This document shows positions 7,356-16,357 of a stretch of 64,000 nucleotides of DNA, piece after piece. Location of the stretch: NCBI RefSeq assembly GCF_023093535.1, contig NZ_CP095757.1:186001-250000 (forward strand), read 5' to 3'. The notes beneath the pieces were generated by a model, which saw only the letters and a list, made by a program, of their open reading frames with translations, searched no databases and was not told the DNA's origin. Source of the stretch: Halovivax limisalsi. Its GTDB lineage: Archaea; Halobacteriota; Halobacteria; Halobacteriales; Natrialbaceae. The translations under genes and the position numbers were made by a program. Position 1 is the first letter of the stretch. Each line of letters begins with the position of its first letter.

Positions 7356-8345
7356 TCACTCGGCGAGGATCGACGCGAGTTTCGACGCCGAGAGGTTCCG
7401 GCCGCTGATCGGGAGCACGACCGTCCGGTCCGCGAGCCGGTCGCGGCGGGCGTAGGCGCCGGCGACGCTCGCCGCGCCCGCCGCCTCCGCCAAGACGTGT
7501 TCGTCACACACGAGTCGCCGGACGGCGTCGCGGAGGTCGGCGTCGGAGACGCGGACGAGATCCGTCAGGTGGTCCCGCAGCACGGACATGGTCAGTTCGA
7601 ACGGCGTGCCGACGGCGATCCCCTCGGCGAACGTCGTCACGTCGTCGATCGGGTCCATGCCACCGTCGTGCCAGGCGCGGTAGGCGGCGTCGGCGCCCTC
7701 GCTCTGGACGCCGATCACGTCAGCGCCGGCGAGTTCGCCGGCCGTCAGGCAGTACCCCGAGGCGTAGCTCCCGCTCCCGACGGGCGAGAAGACGACGTCG
7801 ACGTCCGGCAGCTCCTCGACGACTTCGAGCCCGGCGGTCGCCACGCCGGCGACGATCTGGGTCTCGTTCGCCGGGTGGACGAACCGAAACCCCTCCTCGT
7901 CCGCCCGCCGGTTCGCCCACGCGAACGCCTCGTCCATCGAGTCGCCGTGGTGGCGGACCGTCGCCCCGAGGGCCTCCATCGCGCGCACTTTCGACTCGTT
8001 TGCCTCGTTCGGGACGACGATTTCGACGGGGACGCCGAGCTCCCGCCCGGCGTAGGAGATCGACTGACCGTGGTTGCCCGTACTCGCCGTGATCAGCTTC
8101 GAGACGGATTCCCGTCGGGCGAGGTGGGCGGCGAGCACCAGTCCGCCGCGGAGTTTGAACGCCCCCGTGGGCAGGGTGTCGTCCCGCTTGAGGTAGACGT
8201 CCGCGTCGAGTTCCGCGGAGAGGAAGTCGCTGTAGACCAGCGGCGTCTTCGGAACGTGCTCGCGGATCGTCTGGCGAGCGCGAAAGATGTCCGCGGTGGT
8301 CGGACGATCGGGGATCGTCGACGGTACGTCGGCGGTCGAGTCCAT
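7356..8345 (-). CDS. Threonine/serine dehydratase-like PLP enzyme (type II fold)
   Basis: This 329-residue protein shows the catalytic-lysine segment TGAFKLRGG (Lys64), the substrate loop STGNHGQSI and a glycine-rich phosphate cradle (SPVGSGSY). There is no C-terminal ACT domain, as in catabolic threonine dehydratases, serine/threonine racemases and ectoine-utilisation EutB enzymes. It would convert a hydroxy amino acid to a 2-oxo acid and ammonia. Two ATGs are possible (8369 and 8345); CTCTATACG on the minus strand (8371-8379) lies about 30 nt from 8345, so that start is used. It sits between the FAD oxidoreductase and the aminotransferase. Exact substrate open. Confidence 0.82.
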   Translation of the reverse strand: MDSTADVPSTIPDRPTTADIFRARQTIREHVPKTPLVYSDFLSAELDADVYLKRDDTLPTGAFKLRGGLVLAAHLARRESVSKLITASTGNHGQSISYAGRELGVPVEIVVPNEANESKVRAMEALGATVRHHGDSMDEAFAWANRRADEEGFRFVHPANETQIVAGVATAGLEVVEELPDVDVVFSPVGSGSYASGYCLTAGELAGADVIGVQSEGADAAYRAWHDGGMDPIDDVTTFAEGIAVGTPFELTMSVLRDHLTDLVRVSDADLRDAVRRLVCDEHVLAEAAGAASVAGAYARRDRLADRTVVLPISGRNLSASKLASILAE

Positions 8346-9023
8346 AAGCGTCGCGCTGTTGTCGCTCATTCGTATAGAGGGCGCCAACGGCGGACAATCA
8401 ATCTTCCCCCGAACGCCGTCGGCCGGGAACCGGGGCCGACGATCGGACTGCTTCGAACGGGAACGTCGACCGCCGGCGGGTGTGCCGGGCTGGGCTGGCA
8501 TCCGCCCCAGCGCCGTATCCGGTCGCCGGTCCGTCCCCGGTCGAGGGACGTGCCGCGGCCGTGACCGATGAGTTAGGTCGTCGAGCGGGCCGGCGCGGTT
8601 GGCACCGGGCCGAGCGACCGACTCGCAATCACGCCCGTTGAACTGCTGCTCGACGCCGTCAGTCCGCGCCAGTGAACACAATCGCGGTGTGTTCAACCAT
8701 CCGTCCGTGGGCGAAACCCGATCGCCGGGATCGGCCACGGGATGGGCTCCCTGTCCGGGCCGAATCGGGTTCGAAGAAACGCCCGACGGATTTGAACGGG
8801 CGCGGGCGAGGCGGCAGGCACGCCCGGTGGTAGCAGGGACCGAGTCCTTTATCATACTCTTCGCGAAACAGGTCGGTCGGACGGTGCGATCGGTCGGACT
8901 GCGCGACGGTGGCCCGACCGGTTCGGATCGGTCGTCGGGACCGGCTCGGCGACCAAGGCCCCGGCCGGCGTCCACCCGATCCGGTCACGCGCGGCGACGC
9001 CGATCGCGCGCCCGCAATCAGCC
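8346..9023 (+). other. Intergenic region upstream of two divergent genes, no gene recognised
   Basis: Apart from the dehydratase TATA element (8371-8379) I see nothing with coding character; translations on both strands are Arg/Pro/Ser-rich shadows. An AT-rich spot TTTATCATAC near 8850 could be a distal promoter for the aminotransferase gene, which would then have a leader of roughly 150 nt. No tRNA-like fold was seen. Confidence 0.45.
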
Positions 9024-10166
9024 ATGCAAGCCACACTGAGAACCCGACGGACGGCGCCGAGCGCGACGCTTTCGATCAGCGAACTGGCCGCGACGGTCGA
9101 GGCCGACGGTCACGACGTAATCGACCTCAGCCTCGGCCAGCCCGACTTCCCGACCCCCGAGCACATCGTCGCCGCGGGGAAGGCGGCGATGGACGACGGC
9201 CACACCGGCTACCCGCCGGCCCAGGGGATCGAACCGCTCCGCGACGCGATCGCCGACCGGTTGCGCGAGGACGGCATCGCCCGCGACCCCGACGAGATCA
9301 TCGTCACGCCGGGGGCCAAACAGGCCGTCTTCGAGGCCGTACAGACGCTCGTCGATCCGGGCGACGAGGTCGTCCTCCTCGATCCGGCGTGGGTGAGCTA
9401 CGAGCCGATGGTCTCGCTGGCCGGCGGGTCGACCACGCACGTGGATCTGACGGGCCACGACTTCCAGCTCGAGCCGGCGCTCGAAGCGCTCGGCGACGCG
9501 GTATCCGACGAAACCGCCGTCATCATCCTCAACTCGCCGTGCAATCCGAGCGGGGCGGTCTTCTCCCGGCGCGCGCTGTCGGGGGTGCGAGACCTCGCCG
9601 TCGACCACGACGTCTCGATCATCTCCGACGAGATCTACGACCGCATCACGTACGACGTCGAGCCCGTCAGCCCGGCGTCGCTGGACGGACTGGCCGATCG
9701 AACCGTGACCGTCAACGGATTCTCGAAGTCGTACTCGATGACCGGGTGGCGACTCGGCTACCTGTGCGCCCCGGACTCGATCGTGACGGAGGCCATGAAA
9801 GTCCAGGCGCACTCGGTCTCCTGCGCCCCCAACTTCGTCCAACACGCGGGCGTCGAAGCGCTCCGAGGGGACGACGACGCGATCGCAGAGATGCGCGCGA
9901 CGCTCCGCGAGCGCCGGAACGTGATCGTCGACGCGTTCGCCGAGCACGGCGTCGACATCGCGGCCCCGGACGGCGCGTTCTACCTGCTCGTACCGACCCA
10001 GGGCCACGACGAGTGGGCCGAGACGGCCCTTCGAGAGGCCCACGTCGCGACCGTGCCCGGTTCGGCGTTCGGCACGCCCGAGTACGCTCGCCTCTCCTAC
10101 GCCAACAGCGCGGATCGACTCGCCGAAGCCGTCGATCGACTCGCGGGCGCCGGGTTGCTCGACTGA
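9024..10166 (+). CDS. Class I/II pyridoxal-phosphate aminotransferase
   Basis: The 380-residue protein is a complete aspartate-aminotransferase-fold enzyme. Visible motifs are YPPAQGIEPLR in the N-terminal part, the substrate/PLP loop NSPCNPSG, SDEIYDRITYD, and the Schiff-base segment GFSKSYSMTGWRLGY with Lys235. It would exchange an amino group between an amino acid and 2-oxoglutarate. ATG 9024 is the first in-frame start before the conserved N-terminus. A perfect hairpin follows 43 nt after the stop. Placed between the dehydratase and the ABC operon it fits amino-acid catabolism; specificity cannot be read from sequence. Confidence 0.88.
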   Translation: MQATLRTRRTAPSATLSISELAATVEADGHDVIDLSLGQPDFPTPEHIVAAGKAAMDDGHTGYPPAQGIEPLRDAIADRLREDGIARDPDEIIVTPGAKQAVFEAVQTLVDPGDEVVLLDPAWVSYEPMVSLAGGSTTHVDLTGHDFQLEPALEALGDAVSDETAVIILNSPCNPSGAVFSRRALSGVRDLAVDHDVSIISDEIYDRITYDVEPVSPASLDGLADRTVTVNGFSKSYSMTGWRLGYLCAPDSIVTEAMKVQAHSVSCAPNFVQHAGVEALRGDDDAIAEMRATLRERRNVIVDAFAEHGVDIAAPDGAFYLLVPTQGHDEWAETALREAHVATVPGSAFGTPEYARLSYANSADRLAEAVDRLAGAGLLD

Positions 10167-10464: not shown

Positions 10465-12366
10465 ATGACGATGGAGGACATTCCCAAAAAGATCGACAGG
10501 CGCGACGTATTACAAATGATCGGCGTCTCTTCAGGTGCCGCCGTCGCCGGCTGCCTCGGCGGTGACGGCGCGGACGAGAGCTGTGAGATCCCGGACGGCG
10601 TCGAGGGATCCGTCGAGACCAAGTACTACAACGAGTGGGAAGGCGGTCGACACGAGAACGATATGGGGTACAAGATGACCGCCGAACCCTGCGCGACGGT
10701 CGGCGAGTTCCCGGTCGAGTTTACCCCGGAGCGAACGTCGTGGATGGGCGAGTACGCCCGCATGATCGCCCGCGGTGCCAGCGACCTCGGGCTCAACGGC
10801 GAAACCGTCAGTAACCCGTTCTCGCTGCTCGTGGAAGGGTGGGTCAACAAGGGCCTGAATTACCCGGTGGTGATGATCGCACAGGCGCCCGAACCCCAGC
10901 GTGCGGCCGACCCGCACGCGTTCCTCGGCCGGAAGATCTGCGGCCGGTCGAACAACTTCCAGAACTACTGCAACCCCGAGATGACCGAGCTGGTCCAGAA
11001 ACAGCTCGCCGAGACGGATCAGGAAGCCCGGATGGAACTCGTCCACGAGGGCCAGAAGCTGTGGGCCGAAGACGAAGTGCAGGGCTGGACGTACTTCCCG
11101 CCCGTCCTGAGCCCGGTCAACACGGCCGATTTCGAGGGGTTCTACCCGATGCCGGGCGCCGGCGTCACGAACGATTACTACCCATGGAGCTTCGTGACGA
11201 TCCAGCCGACGGGCGATCGCACGACGTTCATCAAGGGCACCCAGCGCGAGATGAATCGACCGAACTTCATGTGGTCGACCTCCGACGCCGCGTCCATCTG
11301 GATGACGCTCGTCTGGGACAGCCTGTACGACATCGGCCCGAACCTCGAGGTCATCCCCGGACTGGCTACCAGCGCCGAGTTCACCGACGACACGACGGTC
11401 AGGGTGGAGCTGCGCGACGGCGTCACCTGGCACGACGGCGAGCCGTTCAGCGCGGAGGACGTCGTCTGGACGACGGAGGCGTTCATGGATCCGCCCGCGT
11501 CGAACGTTGCCGCCTATTGGGACAACCTGGACGAGGAGAACCCGGTCGAGATCGTCGACGACTCGGGCGCGGGAACCGTCGAATACAATCTGAAATCGAC
11601 GGACGCCCGCTTCCTCACCCAGGGGATGGTCCGCAACGTCATGCTCCCCAAGCACCGGTGGGAGGACGCGTCGAATCCGGCCGACTTCTCGCCGGATCCG
11701 CCGATCGGGACGGGGCCGTTCAAGTGGGAGAGCTGGGATCCCGGCACGCGCCTCGAGTTCTCGTCGTACAAGGACAACTGGTTCTGGAGCGACGACTTCC
11801 AGCAGGAACACCTCGGCGACGACTACACCGAGGGGCCCGGCATCGACAACCTGGTGTTCGTCAACACCGGCAACATCGACTCGACCATCGGCGCGATGGA
11901 GCAGGGCGACATCGACGCGATCTCGGGCACGCTCTCGGTCTCGCAGGCCGAGCGGGCGTCCGAGGGCGAGGGTCGCGGCCTGGTCGAGGCCGAGAACTTC
12001 GTCGGCGTCAACACTTCCGTCGACCACACCATTCCCCTCCTGCGCGACAAGGAGTTCCGCATCGCCTTCTGTCGGCACTCCTGGAGCGTCGAGCAGTTCG
12101 TCGAGGACGTCATGCAGGGGTACGGAACCGTCTCGAAGTCGAACAACCCCATCGTCGACAGCTCGCCGTGGTACACCGACGACACCGTCCCGCGCGAGTA
12201 CGACATCGAGAAGGGCAAGGAGATCCTCCGGAAGGCCGGCTACACCTGGAATAACGGAGATCTGCAGTATCCGGGCGGCGAGGCCTGGGAGGCGTTCGTC
12301 GAGCGGGTCCAGCCCGAAAACACGAACATGCGCCGCGAGGAACTCGGTCAGCCGGACTTCTCCTAA
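10465..12366 (+). CDS. Peptide-type ABC transporter substrate-binding lipoprotein (SBP_bac_5) with permuted domain order
   Basis: This 633-residue protein starts with a Tat lipoprotein signal: DRRDVLQMIG (Arg12-Arg13), then AVAGC with Cys30 as lipobox. Residues about 45-228 resemble the normally C-terminal lobe of OppA/DppA proteins (ARMIARGASDLGL, then DPHAFLG, YCNPEMTEL, ETDQEARMEL, GQKLWAED). After a linker (about 228-262), residues 263-633 resemble the N-terminal and middle parts: WDSLYDIGPNLEVIPGLA, then LRDGVTWHDGEPFSAEDVVW, IGTGPFKWESW, and GKEILRKAGYTW near the end. The full lobe complement is present in swapped order. It would capture a peptide or similar solute outside the membrane for the permeases downstream. 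ATG 10465 is preferred to GTG 10447; the start is uncertain by a few codons. Confidence 0.85.
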   Translation: MTMEDIPKKIDRRDVLQMIGVSSGAAVAGCLGGDGADESCEIPDGVEGSVETKYYNEWEGGRHENDMGYKMTAEPCATVGEFPVEFTPERTSWMGEYARMIARGASDLGLNGETVSNPFSLLVEGWVNKGLNYPVVMIAQAPEPQRAADPHAFLGRKICGRSNNFQNYCNPEMTELVQKQLAETDQEARMELVHEGQKLWAEDEVQGWTYFPPVLSPVNTADFEGFYPMPGAGVTNDYYPWSFVTIQPTGDRTTFIKGTQREMNRPNFMWSTSDAASIWMTLVWDSLYDIGPNLEVIPGLATSAEFTDDTTVRVELRDGVTWHDGEPFSAEDVVWTTEAFMDPPASNVAAYWDNLDEENPVEIVDDSGAGTVEYNLKSTDARFLTQGMVRNVMLPKHRWEDASNPADFSPDPPIGTGPFKWESWDPGTRLEFSSYKDNWFWSDDFQQEHLGDDYTEGPGIDNLVFVNTGNIDSTIGAMEQGDIDAISGTLSVSQAERASEGEGRGLVEAENFVGVNTSVDHTIPLLRDKEFRIAFCRHSWSVEQFVEDVMQGYGTVSKSNNPIVDSSPWYTDDTVPREYDIEKGKEILRKAGYTWNNGDLQYPGGEAWEAFVERVQPENTNMRREELGQPDFS

Positions 12367-12392: not shown

Positions 12393-13382
12393 ATGAACAA
12401 GTTACAGAGATTTATACTAAAGCGCGTCACCGTCTCGATAGCGCTGGCGGTCGTCGCCGTGTCGATCATCTTCTTCATCCTTCGAGCGCTGCCCGGATCG
12501 CCGTACACGAGCATGTTGCTGAGCAACCAGCTCAGCCCGGAGCAGGTCGAAGCGCTGAGAGCACAGTACGGGCTGGACGAGCCGATCCACGTTCAGTACC
12601 TGAGATACGTCTCGTCGCTGCTCACCGGGGAATTCGGCTACTCGATACAGTCCGGGGCGCCGGTCTGGGAGGTCATCAGGCCGAAGCTCGTCAATTCGCT
12701 CGTGTTGCTCATCCCGTCGCTGGTCTTCACCGCGATCGTCAGTTCCCTCATCGGCATGTACGCCGGCTGGAAGCGAGGGTCGCGCCTCGAGCGCGCGAGC
12801 ATCCTGCTCGGGACCACCTTCCGGTCGACGCCGATCTTCATCACGGGCATCTTCCTGCTGATGATCTTCTCGTACCAGCTCGGGTGGTTCCCCACGTTCG
12901 GCATGCGCGATCCGATCGCCAATCCGGACGGATGGCAAGAGACGTTCCTCTCGATGGACTTCGCACACCACTACGTGCTGCCGTTCGTGACGGCGGCGCT
13001 GGTCTACAGCGGCGACTTCCTGCTGCTCGCACGAAACGGCGTCGTGGAGCGACAGGGGTCGGCGTTCCTGAAGCTCCACCGCGCGAAGGGGCTCTCCGAG
13101 GGCGAACAGCTCCTTCGGGCCGGGCGGAACTCGATGCTCCCCCTGATCACGTACTTCGCGATCCGGATGGGGATGATCTTCCAGGGGATGATCCTGCTGG
13201 AGGTCGTCTTCGCCTGGCCGGGCATCGGCCGCCAGCTCGTCATCGCGATCATCGACCAGGACTATCCGACGGTCCAGGCGGCGGTGTTCCTGATGGCGCT
13301 GGCCGTGATCATCGCGAACCTGATCGCGGACCTGCTGTACGGCTACTTCGACCCGACGATCAACATGGGTGATACCGAATGA
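12393..13382 (+). CDS. Peptide-type ABC transporter permease (DppB/OppB family)
   Basis: This 329-residue protein has about six membrane helices. An N-terminal helix is followed by an extracytoplasmic loop with GLDEPIHVQYLRY, typical of DppB-type permeases. The C-terminal half carries the coupling-helix region (EAA motif) around HRAKGLSEGEQLLRAGRNS. It forms the translocation channel with the next permease. Its stop overlaps the start of the DppC-like gene (ATGA), so translation is coupled. The 26-nt gap from the binding-protein gene indicates one operon. Confidence 0.9.
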   Translation: MNKLQRFILKRVTVSIALAVVAVSIIFFILRALPGSPYTSMLLSNQLSPEQVEALRAQYGLDEPIHVQYLRYVSSLLTGEFGYSIQSGAPVWEVIRPKLVNSLVLLIPSLVFTAIVSSLIGMYAGWKRGSRLERASILLGTTFRSTPIFITGIFLLMIFSYQLGWFPTFGMRDPIANPDGWQETFLSMDFAHHYVLPFVTAALVYSGDFLLLARNGVVERQGSAFLKLHRAKGLSEGEQLLRAGRNSMLPLITYFAIRMGMIFQGMILLEVVFAWPGIGRQLVIAIIDQDYPTVQAAVFLMALAVIIANLIADLLYGYFDPTINMGDTE

Positions 13383-14290
13383 GCACGATGGACGCGATGG
13401 AGAATCCGCTTCGGTCGGTCAAAGAGCGCAGCAGCTGGGTCCTGAAGCAGTTGAAGATACTGTCGCAGGACCGCGGCGCGTTCATCAGCATGATCATCCT
13501 GGGCGTCTTCGTCTTCCTCGGCCTCTTCGGCCCGCACATCGCCCCGCACCACCCGATCGAACACACGATGCGGCAAGGCGCGTCCGTGATGCGCCTCGAA
13601 TCGCCGAGCCTCGCCGCGCCCTTCGGGACGACCCAGTACGGCAAGGACGTCTTCAGTCAGTTCCTGACCGGGGCGCGTCCGACGCTGATCGCGGGCGTCG
13701 TCGGCGGGCTGTTCGCGGCCGCGTTCGGGTTCCTCGTCGGGCTGACGGCGGGCTACTTCGGCGGCTGGGTCGACGAAGTGCTGATGCGCTTTACCGACCT
13801 CGCGTTCGCGCTACCGGGGCTGCCGCTGGTGATCCTGATCCTCTCGTTCGTCGAGCCCAGCGTCTGGCTGATCTCGGTCGCGTACCTGGCCATCATCTGG
13901 AAGCAGACGGCGCGCGTCCTGCGCTCCGAGGTGATCACGGTGAAAGAGCGGACGTTCGTGAAAGGCGCCCGCGCCAGCGGCGCCGGACACCTGCGAACGA
14001 TGTTCGTCCACGTCGCGCCGAACGTCCTGCCGATCGGCTTCCTCTACGGCGCCTACAGCGTCGGGTGGGCCATCTACGGGCAGGCCGGCATCGCGTTCCT
14101 CGGCTTCGGCGACCCGTCGACGACCAGCTGGGGTCGGATGCTCCGCCAGGCGTTCGACTCGGGGTCGATGCGCGAGGCCTGGTGGTGGGTCATCCCGCCG
14201 GCGCTCGGCATCGCGCTCGTCTGCGTCGCCGTCTTCTTCATCGGCCGGGCGTACGAAGAGATAGTCAATCCGGAGATCAGTGAGGCATAA
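13379..14290 (+). CDS. Peptide-type ABC transporter permease (DppC/OppC family)
   Basis: The 303-residue protein has an N-terminal cytoplasmic segment, one helix, the extracytoplasmic motif PFGTTQYGKDVFSQ characteristic of DppC-type permeases, and five further helices. The coupling-helix region is KGARASGAGHLRTMFVHVAPN. It partners the DppB-like permease. The start ATG 13379 overlaps the upstream stop. The stop TAA directly abuts the ATG of the ATPase gene, so the four transporter genes form a tight operon. Confidence 0.9.
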   Translation: MSTMDAMENPLRSVKERSSWVLKQLKILSQDRGAFISMIILGVFVFLGLFGPHIAPHHPIEHTMRQGASVMRLESPSLAAPFGTTQYGKDVFSQFLTGARPTLIAGVVGGLFAAAFGFLVGLTAGYFGGWVDEVLMRFTDLAFALPGLPLVILILSFVEPSVWLISVAYLAIIWKQTARVLRSEVITVKERTFVKGARASGAGHLRTMFVHVAPNVLPIGFLYGAYSVGWAIYGQAGIAFLGFGDPSTTSWGRMLRQAFDSGSMREAWWWVIPPALGIALVCVAVFFIGRAYEEIVNPEISEA

Positions 14291-16357
14291 ATGACGCTAC
14301 TCGACATCGACAATCTATCGGTCCGATATCGCACCGGCGACGACTACATCCACGCCGTCAGCGACGTCTCGCTCTCCATCGACGAGGGAACGAACTACGG
14401 CCTCGTCGGCGAGAGCGGCAGCGGGAAGTCCACCATCGCCGACGCGATCTTGCAACTCCTCCCGTCGTCGGCCAAGGTGGACAGCGACGGCGTCCTGTTC
14501 GACGGCGTCGATCTCATCGACGCGGACTCGAAGACGAAACAGAAGCTGCTCTGGGAGGATATCGCCTTCATCCCGCAGGACGCGATGGACGCGCTCGACC
14601 CGGTGATGTCCTGTGGCGACCAGATCGTCCAGGCCATCCGAAAGCACCGGGACGTCTCCCGCGAGGACGCCCGCGAGCGGACCAGGGAGGTGTTCGACAT
14701 CGTGGGGATCGATCCGGACCGCATCGACGAGTACCCCCACCAGTTCAGCGGCGGGATGCGCCAGCGCGTCACGATCGCGATGGCGATGGCGCTCGACCCG
14801 AAGCTCATCATCGCGGACGAGCCGACGACCGGCCTCGACGTCATCGTCCAGGACAAGATCCTCGACAAGATCGACGAGGTCCAGCAGCGAACGGGCAGTT
14901 CGCTCCTGATGATCACCCACGACATCGGGGTCGTCTCAGAGCTCTGCGACGAGCTGACCGTCCTCTACGGCGGGAAGACGATGGAGCAGGGCCGGACGGA
15001 CGACGTGCTCGACAAGCCGACGAACCCGTACACGATGGGGCTGAAGAACTCGTTCCCGGACATCGGCTCGCACGACGAGAGTCTGGTCTCCATCCCGGGA
15101 TCGCCGCCCGAACGCCGCGGCGAGCTGGACGGCTGCGTCTTCCGCGCCCGGTGCCCGTTCGCGACCGAGGAGTGCGAAGCCGCCCACCCGCCGCTGCACG
15201 AGGACGCGGAGACGGGACAGCGTTCGGCGTGTCACTATCAGTCCGACGCGGCGGACCTCCGCGAGCAGGCGACCGATCCGACGGTCTGGGGCATCGAGTC
15301 CGCAGACGAGTACGCCGAGTTCGACGCGACGTCGGAGCCGGTCATCGAGACTCGAGACCTACAGAAGTGGTTCTCGACCGGGCAGTCGCTCATGGATCAG
15401 ATCCGCGGTCGGGAACCGAACTACGTCAAGGCGGTCGACGGGGTCGACCTGACGGTCTCGAAGTCGGAAATCGTCGGGCTCGCCGGGGAGAGCGGCTGCG
15501 GAAAGAGTACCCTCGGCATGACGATGGTCCGCCTCGAGGAGCCGACGGGCGGCACCATCGAGTTCAACGGCGAGGAACTCGAGGCGCTGCGCGGCGGCGA
15601 ACTCAAGGAGTTCCGACGACAGGCACAGATCATCTTCCAGGACCCCTTCGACTCGCTCAACCCGCGCCAGACCGTCCGCCAGATCGTCAAAGAGCCCCTC
15701 GATATCCACGACATCGAGAGCGACCGCGACGGCAGCCGCGAGCGGGAGGTCATCCAGACGCTCGAAGACGTCGGGCTCACGCCGCCGGAGCGCTTCCTGT
15801 CGAAGCGACCCCACGAGCTCTCGGGCGGGGAGCGCCAGCGCGTCGCGGTCGCCCGGGGGCTCGTCCTCCGGCCGGACCTGCTCATCTGCGACGAGCCGGC
15901 CTCGATGCTCGACGTCTCGCTGCGCGTCGGATTGTTGAACCTGATGCGAAAACTCGCGCGCGAGAACGACATCGGGATCCTCTACATCTCCCACGACCTC
16001 TCGAGCCTGGCGTACGTCGCCGATCGGCTCGCGATCATGTACCTCGGCAACATCGTCGAGATCGGCGAGACGGGCGACGTGCTCGAGCACGCCTACCACC
16101 CGTACACGTCCGCGCTACTCGCCGCCTGGCCGCAGAAAGATCCGCTGAAAAAACGGAATCGCGTGCTGCTGCCGGGCGAACCGCCGGATCCCATCGACCT
16201 GGAAGCGGGGTGTAACTTCGCCCCCCGCTGCCCGCACGCCCAGGACGACTGCTGGGAGAACGATCCGGCGTTGACGGACACGTCGAGCGACGGCGATCAC
16301 CGGAAGGCGTGTCACCACCCGATGGAACTGGGCGAGGACGTGACCGACCTGCTATGA
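14291..16357 (+). CDS. Fused double ABC ATPase (DppD-DppF type) for peptide-type transporter
   Basis: This 688-residue protein contains two complete ABC ATPase domains in one chain. Domain 1 has Walker A GESGSGKST (about residue 40), signature FSGGMRQRV and Walker B LIIADEPTTGLD. Domain 2 has Walker A GESGCGKST (about 399), signature LSGGERQRV and Walker B LLICDEPASMLD. Each domain ends in the oligopeptide-transporter C-terminal motif with a four-cysteine pattern (CVFRARCPFATEEC and CNFAPRCPHAQDDC), which often binds a cluster or metal. In most bacteria these are two genes. It energises import through the permeases encoded upstream. Confidence 0.92.
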   Translation: MTLLDIDNLSVRYRTGDDYIHAVSDVSLSIDEGTNYGLVGESGSGKSTIADAILQLLPSSAKVDSDGVLFDGVDLIDADSKTKQKLLWEDIAFIPQDAMDALDPVMSCGDQIVQAIRKHRDVSREDARERTREVFDIVGIDPDRIDEYPHQFSGGMRQRVTIAMAMALDPKLIIADEPTTGLDVIVQDKILDKIDEVQQRTGSSLLMITHDIGVVSELCDELTVLYGGKTMEQGRTDDVLDKPTNPYTMGLKNSFPDIGSHDESLVSIPGSPPERRGELDGCVFRARCPFATEECEAAHPPLHEDAETGQRSACHYQSDAADLREQATDPTVWGIESADEYAEFDATSEPVIETRDLQKWFSTGQSLMDQIRGREPNYVKAVDGVDLTVSKSEIVGLAGESGCGKSTLGMTMVRLEEPTGGTIEFNGEELEALRGGELKEFRRQAQIIFQDPFDSLNPRQTVRQIVKEPLDIHDIESDRDGSREREVIQTLEDVGLTPPERFLSKRPHELSGGERQRVAVARGLVLRPDLLICDEPASMLDVSLRVGLLNLMRKLARENDIGILYISHDLSSLAYVADRLAIMYLGNIVEIGETGDVLEHAYHPYTSALLAAWPQKDPLKKRNRVLLPGEPPDPIDLEAGCNFAPRCPHAQDDCWENDPALTDTSSDGDHRKACHHPMELGEDVTDLL

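Follow-up and report, generated by a model that had tools for sequence, protein, structure and literature searches.

The dipeptide/oligopeptide/nickel-type substrate-binding proteins of ABC importers (family 5, cluster C, PF00496) are represented in Escherichia coli by DppA, OppA, NikA and GsiB. These are lipoproteins or exported proteins that contain all segments of the family, in the order A-B-C, and their operons are of the type that also encodes DppB/DppC permeases and DppD/DppF ATPases. Changes in chain order are not foreign to binding proteins. An ancient change of strand order, the domain dislocation, separates the type I and type II periplasmic binding proteins; this is a deep change of fold class, whereas the case described here is a permuted gene order within one family that has living canonical relatives. 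Closest to the present case is TpMglB-2 (Tp0684) of Treponema pallidum, a glucose-binding protein of cluster B whose chain is permuted and which still functions as a monomer; the designation "Type Ic / Cluster Bc" was proposed for it (PMC4990184). Its authors suggested membrane tethering as the cause of the permutation (PMC4990184).

The stretch of Halovivax limisalsi DNA analysed here (the window; 64,000 nucleotides) contains an intact binding-protein gene at positions 10465-12366. It shares with the E. coli systems the full set of family segments, an exported lipoprotein product and the operon type, but its segments are arranged B-C-A and its chain would both start and end inside the second lobe. 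Very probably, the product is a naturally circularly permuted substrate-binding lipoprotein of a family-5 (cluster C) ABC importer of the dipeptide/oligopeptide/nickel type. With TpMglB-2, which keeps binding and closing, it has in common the natural permutation of an ABC-importer binding protein and its wide distribution in relatives; TpMglB-2 differs in belonging to cluster B, in its type I fold, in binding sugar, in being cut in the N lobe and in its unrelated origin (PMC4990184). The protein from the window has PF00496/cluster C matches only and is not of the cluster B (MglB) type.

Segment Order of the 633-Residue Protein

The open reading frame runs from an ATG start to a TAA stop, and its coding part (10465-12363) specifies 633 residues. 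All features of the gene and its operon lie on the + strand. The Tat lipoprotein signal claimed in an earlier, sequence-only reading is borne out by twin arginines at residues 12-13 and a lipobox AGC with Cys30 (10465-10554). Behind the lipobox, residues 31-81 (10555-10707) form an N-terminal extension or linker whose VETxYWxxW motif is kept in aligned orthologues.

Canonical haloarchaeal family-5 proteins were cut into three segments, and models were built from each. Segment A extends from the N-terminus to the "..EEAGY" helix, segment B from the following strand up to the "..NxExxxLVE" helix, and segment C is the remainder. Every full-length canonical protein tested with these models stayed A-B-C. 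By contrast with a normal family member, in which the rest of the profile and ∼60 more residues would follow, the 633-residue protein has only 24 residues behind its PF00496 match, which covers residues 295-609 only and profile positions 1-288 of 368 (169.6 bits; curated cut-off, 32.4). Comparison of the orthologue profile with the canonical profile by hhalign placed residues 251-600 on columns 98-412, corresponding to segment A (E = 1.8e-46), and residues 60-250 on columns 431-575 of 587, corresponding to B-C (probability 97%, E = 4.1e-11). In pairwise BLAST against E. coli DppA, residues ∼295-633 aligned with DppA 73-401 (E = 2e-17), and a second, reversed block was weak (residues ∼161-197 with 455-491, E = 0.006).

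Pfam found nothing in residues 41-250, and the single B and C segment models likewise gave no match there. The silence of Pfam would fit the N-terminal 250 residues being an unrelated domain attached to a C-terminally truncated binding protein. We consider that reading very unlikely, given that profile-profile comparison aligns these residues with the canonical C-terminal part at E = 4.1e-11 and the runner-up placement at E = 0.35, that Pfam and BLAST detect the C-terminal part directly in relatives, and that a fold search of the N-terminal part alone leads to the same family. Because the single segment models fail, the B/C identity of this part of the permuted protein is drawn from the orthologue profile, the weak reversed blocks and the clear relatives.

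Those relatives make the order visible. In six of them (L008, L014, L017, L121, L122 and L123), PF00496 splits, the N-terminal fragments matching profile positions 284-366 (E = 4e-6 to 7e-10) and the C-terminal parts positions 1-288. The expectation that PF00496 would give two matches in reversed order thus holds for the B-C-A homologues; in the 633-residue protein itself only the A part is matched, and the B-C part is recovered by profile-profile comparison. A protein from another Halobacteriota family, L159, aligned with E. coli DppA over residues 194-519 (DppA 27-366, E = 2e-43) and, in a second, reversed block, over residues 42-175 (DppA 390-524, E = 4e-15). These blocks place the cut between residues ∼366 and 390 of the E. 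coli DppA precursor and leave about ten residues or less for the linker joining the old termini. The cut position falls in what we take to be domain II of the DppA structure, so that both new termini would lie in lobe II.

The segments of the 633-residue protein can be delimited as follows. Segment B comprises residues ∼82-183 (10708-11013), the first piece of the canonical C-terminal part, from a PVEF strand to the NYCNPEMTELVQKQ helix; its assignment is based on the hhalign match of residues 60-250 and on second domains found by phmmer against 5isu and 5u4o. Segment C, assigned by hhalign, comprises residues ∼184-243 (11014-11193) and is the canonical C-terminal end (DQEARMELVHEGQKLWAED ... 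GFYPMPGAG). A short linker, VTIQPTGDR (residues 244-252; 11194-11220), forms the junction of the old C and N termini, as judged from the spacing of the aligned blocks. Segment A, the canonical N-terminal and middle parts, occupies residues 253-595 (11221-12249), holds the PF00496 match and ends with GKEILRKAGYTW. A new C-terminal tail (residues 596-633; 12250-12363) carries the pattern GxLxxPxGxAWxAFVxRxQ..., which is kept in aligned orthologues.

The sequence-only reading had therefore been correct in placing the C-lobe part first, the N-terminal and middle part behind it, and the end of the chain where the C-lobe usually begins, but its boundaries shift: the C-lobe part spans about 82-243 instead of 45-228, the N-terminal part starts at about 253 instead of 263, and GKEILRKAGYTW lies at 584-595 rather than near 595-610. 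Its view that nothing large is missing from a full-length protein is upheld, as each family segment is present exactly once. On these alignments, the order of the family-5 segments is confirmed as B-C-A and not A-B-C, and the arrangement, with each homologous segment present once, rotated, and the old termini joined, is by sequence a natural circular permutation. The protein exceeds the PF00496 cut-off, has the C-terminal part and the export signal, and is accompanied by a BPD_transp_1 pair and oligo_HPY domains; of the family's sequence traits it lacks the canonical N-middle-C order, and this makes it a variant.

Conservation of the Gene and Its Operon

Full-length colinear homologues turned up when 60 relatives were searched. 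Scanning genome contigs with the single protein returned no orthologues, and a four-row profile then gave 27 loci. The 27 orthologues from this profile scan of GTDB genomes are 36-45% identical, have the common B-C-A order and come from Natrinema, Haloterrigena, Haloferax, Haloarcula, Halorussus, Haladaptatus, Halocatena, Halococcus and other genera; segment A is at the C-terminal end in all complete ones. Together with many remoter relatives, they answer the survey proposed in the earlier reading: these homologues have the rotated order and not the normal one.

Three importer genes follow the binding-protein gene. A DppB/OppB-type permease (12393-13382; PF00528, PF19300, with NCBIfam Opp4B as the best match) begins 26 bp downstream, a DppC/OppC-type permease (13379-14290; PF00528, PF12911) overlaps it by 4 bp, and a fused DppD-DppF type ATPase with two ABC_tran and two oligo_HPY domains is encoded at 14291-16357. 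In all 26 complete orthologue loci, dppB, dppC and dppDF lie downstream on the same strand. The dN/dS ratio in eight close pairs was 0.09-0.18 overall and similar in both halves (0.09-0.19, about 0.1 in each), indicating purifying selection on the permuted protein. The intact operon noted earlier is thus a conserved one.

These data bear on whether the gene was simply broken, as a pseudogene or assembly artefact, by a local rearrangement or fusion. Nothing beyond the odd segment order speaks for this, and the conservation of that order across the 27 orthologues, which represent many genera, refutes it; the low dN/dS in both halves, the intact operon and a similar order in independently sequenced bacteria count against it as well, and we give it practically no credence. 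Comparative sequence data instead show the rotated order to be inherited and under purifying selection, in a gene that belongs to a conserved importer operon.

An insertion of 2 kb separates the binding-protein gene from dppB in 4 of the 26 loci (L042, L049, L051 and L058). In L042 it spans 7898-9969 and consists of two genes that resemble a CaiB-type CoA transferase and a CitE-like lyase, a possible hint of an organic-acid substrate. Neighbours in the window include an aminotransferase and threonine-dehydratase-like, D-amino-acid-oxidase-type FAD and 2-hydroxy-3-oxopropionate-reductase-like enzymes, from which an amino-acid-like or small peptide substrate might be guessed for the predicted importer. 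Neighbour enzymes and the L042 insertion together hint at amino- or organic-acid use and decide nothing.

Structure Models

An AlphaFold model of the whole chain, built with a 20-row orthologue alignment, was of low confidence (pLDDT 56, pTM 0.45). In a Foldseek search, this model retrieved AppA, NikZ, DppA and other family-5 proteins first, at TM-scores of only ∼0.25, the search aligning in chain order and so giving no score for a permuted whole. When the N-terminal part was modelled alone (pLDDT 54), the top 29 matches of the PDB fold search were family-5 proteins, including OppA, DppE and MppA, with a best E of 1.3e-3. This predicted fold agrees with family-5 identity and may be counted as supportive but weak. 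Among PDB chains found by sequence, the B-C-A order was absent.

The order could be real without the protein being a single permuted monomer, if the chains formed a domain-swapped dimer or if the N-terminal part were an independent module. The low confidence of the whole-chain model would fit such an arrangement, as would the strong divergence of the N-terminal part in the orthologue group, where Pfam misses it. We nevertheless regard it as improbable because the chain is as long as one complete set of segments requires, every class has a short junction, and TpMglB-2, permuted within cluster B, functions as a monomer (PMC4990184).

Occurrence of the B-C-A Order in Archaea and Bacteria

A junction model, A3, was run on 393 Halobacteriota genomes. 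Its matches split cleanly into those starting at model position 2-31, which include the whole junction (B-C-A), and those starting at position 181 or later, which include A only (canonical). Among the matches listed, at least 51 of 81 haloarchaeal genomes encode B-C-A proteins, as do at least 4 genomes of a second Halobacteriota family (f21). The B-C-A protein L159 (G239:C2, ORF 730-2472, - strand) has no lipobox and has a hydrophobic, anchor-like C-terminal tail, PGFG...RRRR, so that a tether in that lineage would sit at the new C-terminus.

The host genome encodes ten PF00496 proteins, half of them assigned as permuted: four B-C-A, one probable C-A-B (at 1783239; see below) and five canonical. 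The B-C-A set consists of the 633-residue protein, a tandem pair at 1691283-1695628 and a protein at 1763487. In the 12-kb locus that holds the tandem pair (L031; G000:C1:1691283-1695628), no DppB-like permease was found at E = 1e-6. A 744-residue host protein (L038), initially of unclear order, was assigned from the position of segment A as canonical with an N-terminal extension.

For bacteria, plasmids were surveyed and only one-piece tblastn matches over at least 80% of the query were counted. Fetched loci on plasmids of Nitratireductor, Maritalea, Roseomonas and Neorhizobium encode B-C-A proteins in full ABC operons, and further one-piece plasmid matches were obtained in Ketogulonicigenium and Microvirga; the plasmids are alphaproteobacterial. 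The bacterial B-C-A proteins have no lipobox, which implies that tethering is not needed to keep the order. Agrobacterium/K84 plasmid matches reached 98% coverage in two pieces and were rejected, the fetched one being canonical. In Neorhizobium galegae VafX2 (L125, CP090555.1), the B-C-A gene is annotated as two pieces, a hypothetical protein and a binding protein; its intact relative L123 is a single ORF.

A Second Class and the Origin of the Orders

In a second class, C-A-B, the last segment has been shifted to the front. Residues 2-532 of L027 align with residues 12-512 of the canonical protein L098 (56%), and residues 54-110 of L027 correspond to the C-terminal residues 515-571 of L098 (49%, E = 1.4e-13). 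L027 (G001:C1:3749534-3751141) and a further C-A-B protein, L097 (G060:C1:3140116-3141660), are nested among canonical relatives that are 49-62% identical, and the position of L027 in the tree indicates that its permutation is young and independent. A widespread haloarchaeal family, comprising the host protein L037 (G000:C1:1783239-1784969) and 14 relatives (L178-L191), ends after segment B. Its front part is similar to the stretch that closes canonical chains (hhalign E = 4.7e-4), and segment B is matched at its own end (E = 2e-10). This family is probably a second C-A-B lineage, although the alignments make the assignment less certain than that of L027.

A tree of segment A with 63 rows united 27 B-C-A proteins from archaea and bacteria, the 633-residue protein among them, in one clade (98/82), with canonical proteins from other members of the Halobacteriota as its sister group (97/84). 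A further three small B-C-A groups were placed elsewhere, one outlier being a very long branch. AU tests against a single B-C-A clade gave p = 0.040 for all proteins, including the very long branch, and p = 0.109 and 0.095 for two subsets. On these values, the B-C-A order may have arisen once or several times; the C-A-B event is separate.

Discussion

In the open-access literature searched, no permuted family-5/cluster C binding protein was found. The permuted family-5 proteins are a real variant that is apparently unreported, with TpMglB-2 as the nearest precedent (PMC4990184).

By sequence, the chain runs from the C-terminal part through a short linker fusing the former termini into the N-terminal and middle part. 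In the model that we propose, the protein would be expected to retain the same two-lobed Venus-flytrap fold, since permutation keeps all spatial neighbours if the old termini are close. With both new ends in the second lobe, the lipid tether would hang from lobe II instead of lobe I. Solute would be bound in the cleft and handed to the importer of DppB-DppC-DppDF type whose genes follow.

The family thus includes a large permuted class, common in haloarchaea and present also in bacteria, whose members are described in databases just as "ABC transporter substrate-binding protein". The rotated order accounts for the apparent truncation of such proteins in profile searches. The class amounts to a natural experiment on the lobe required to bear the lipid tether and on how binding proteins dock on the permease, and its bacterial members without a lipobox put to the test the suggested role of permutation in membrane anchoring. 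In the young C-A-B case, which lies beside close canonical genes, the stepwise route of a gene permutation could be traced.
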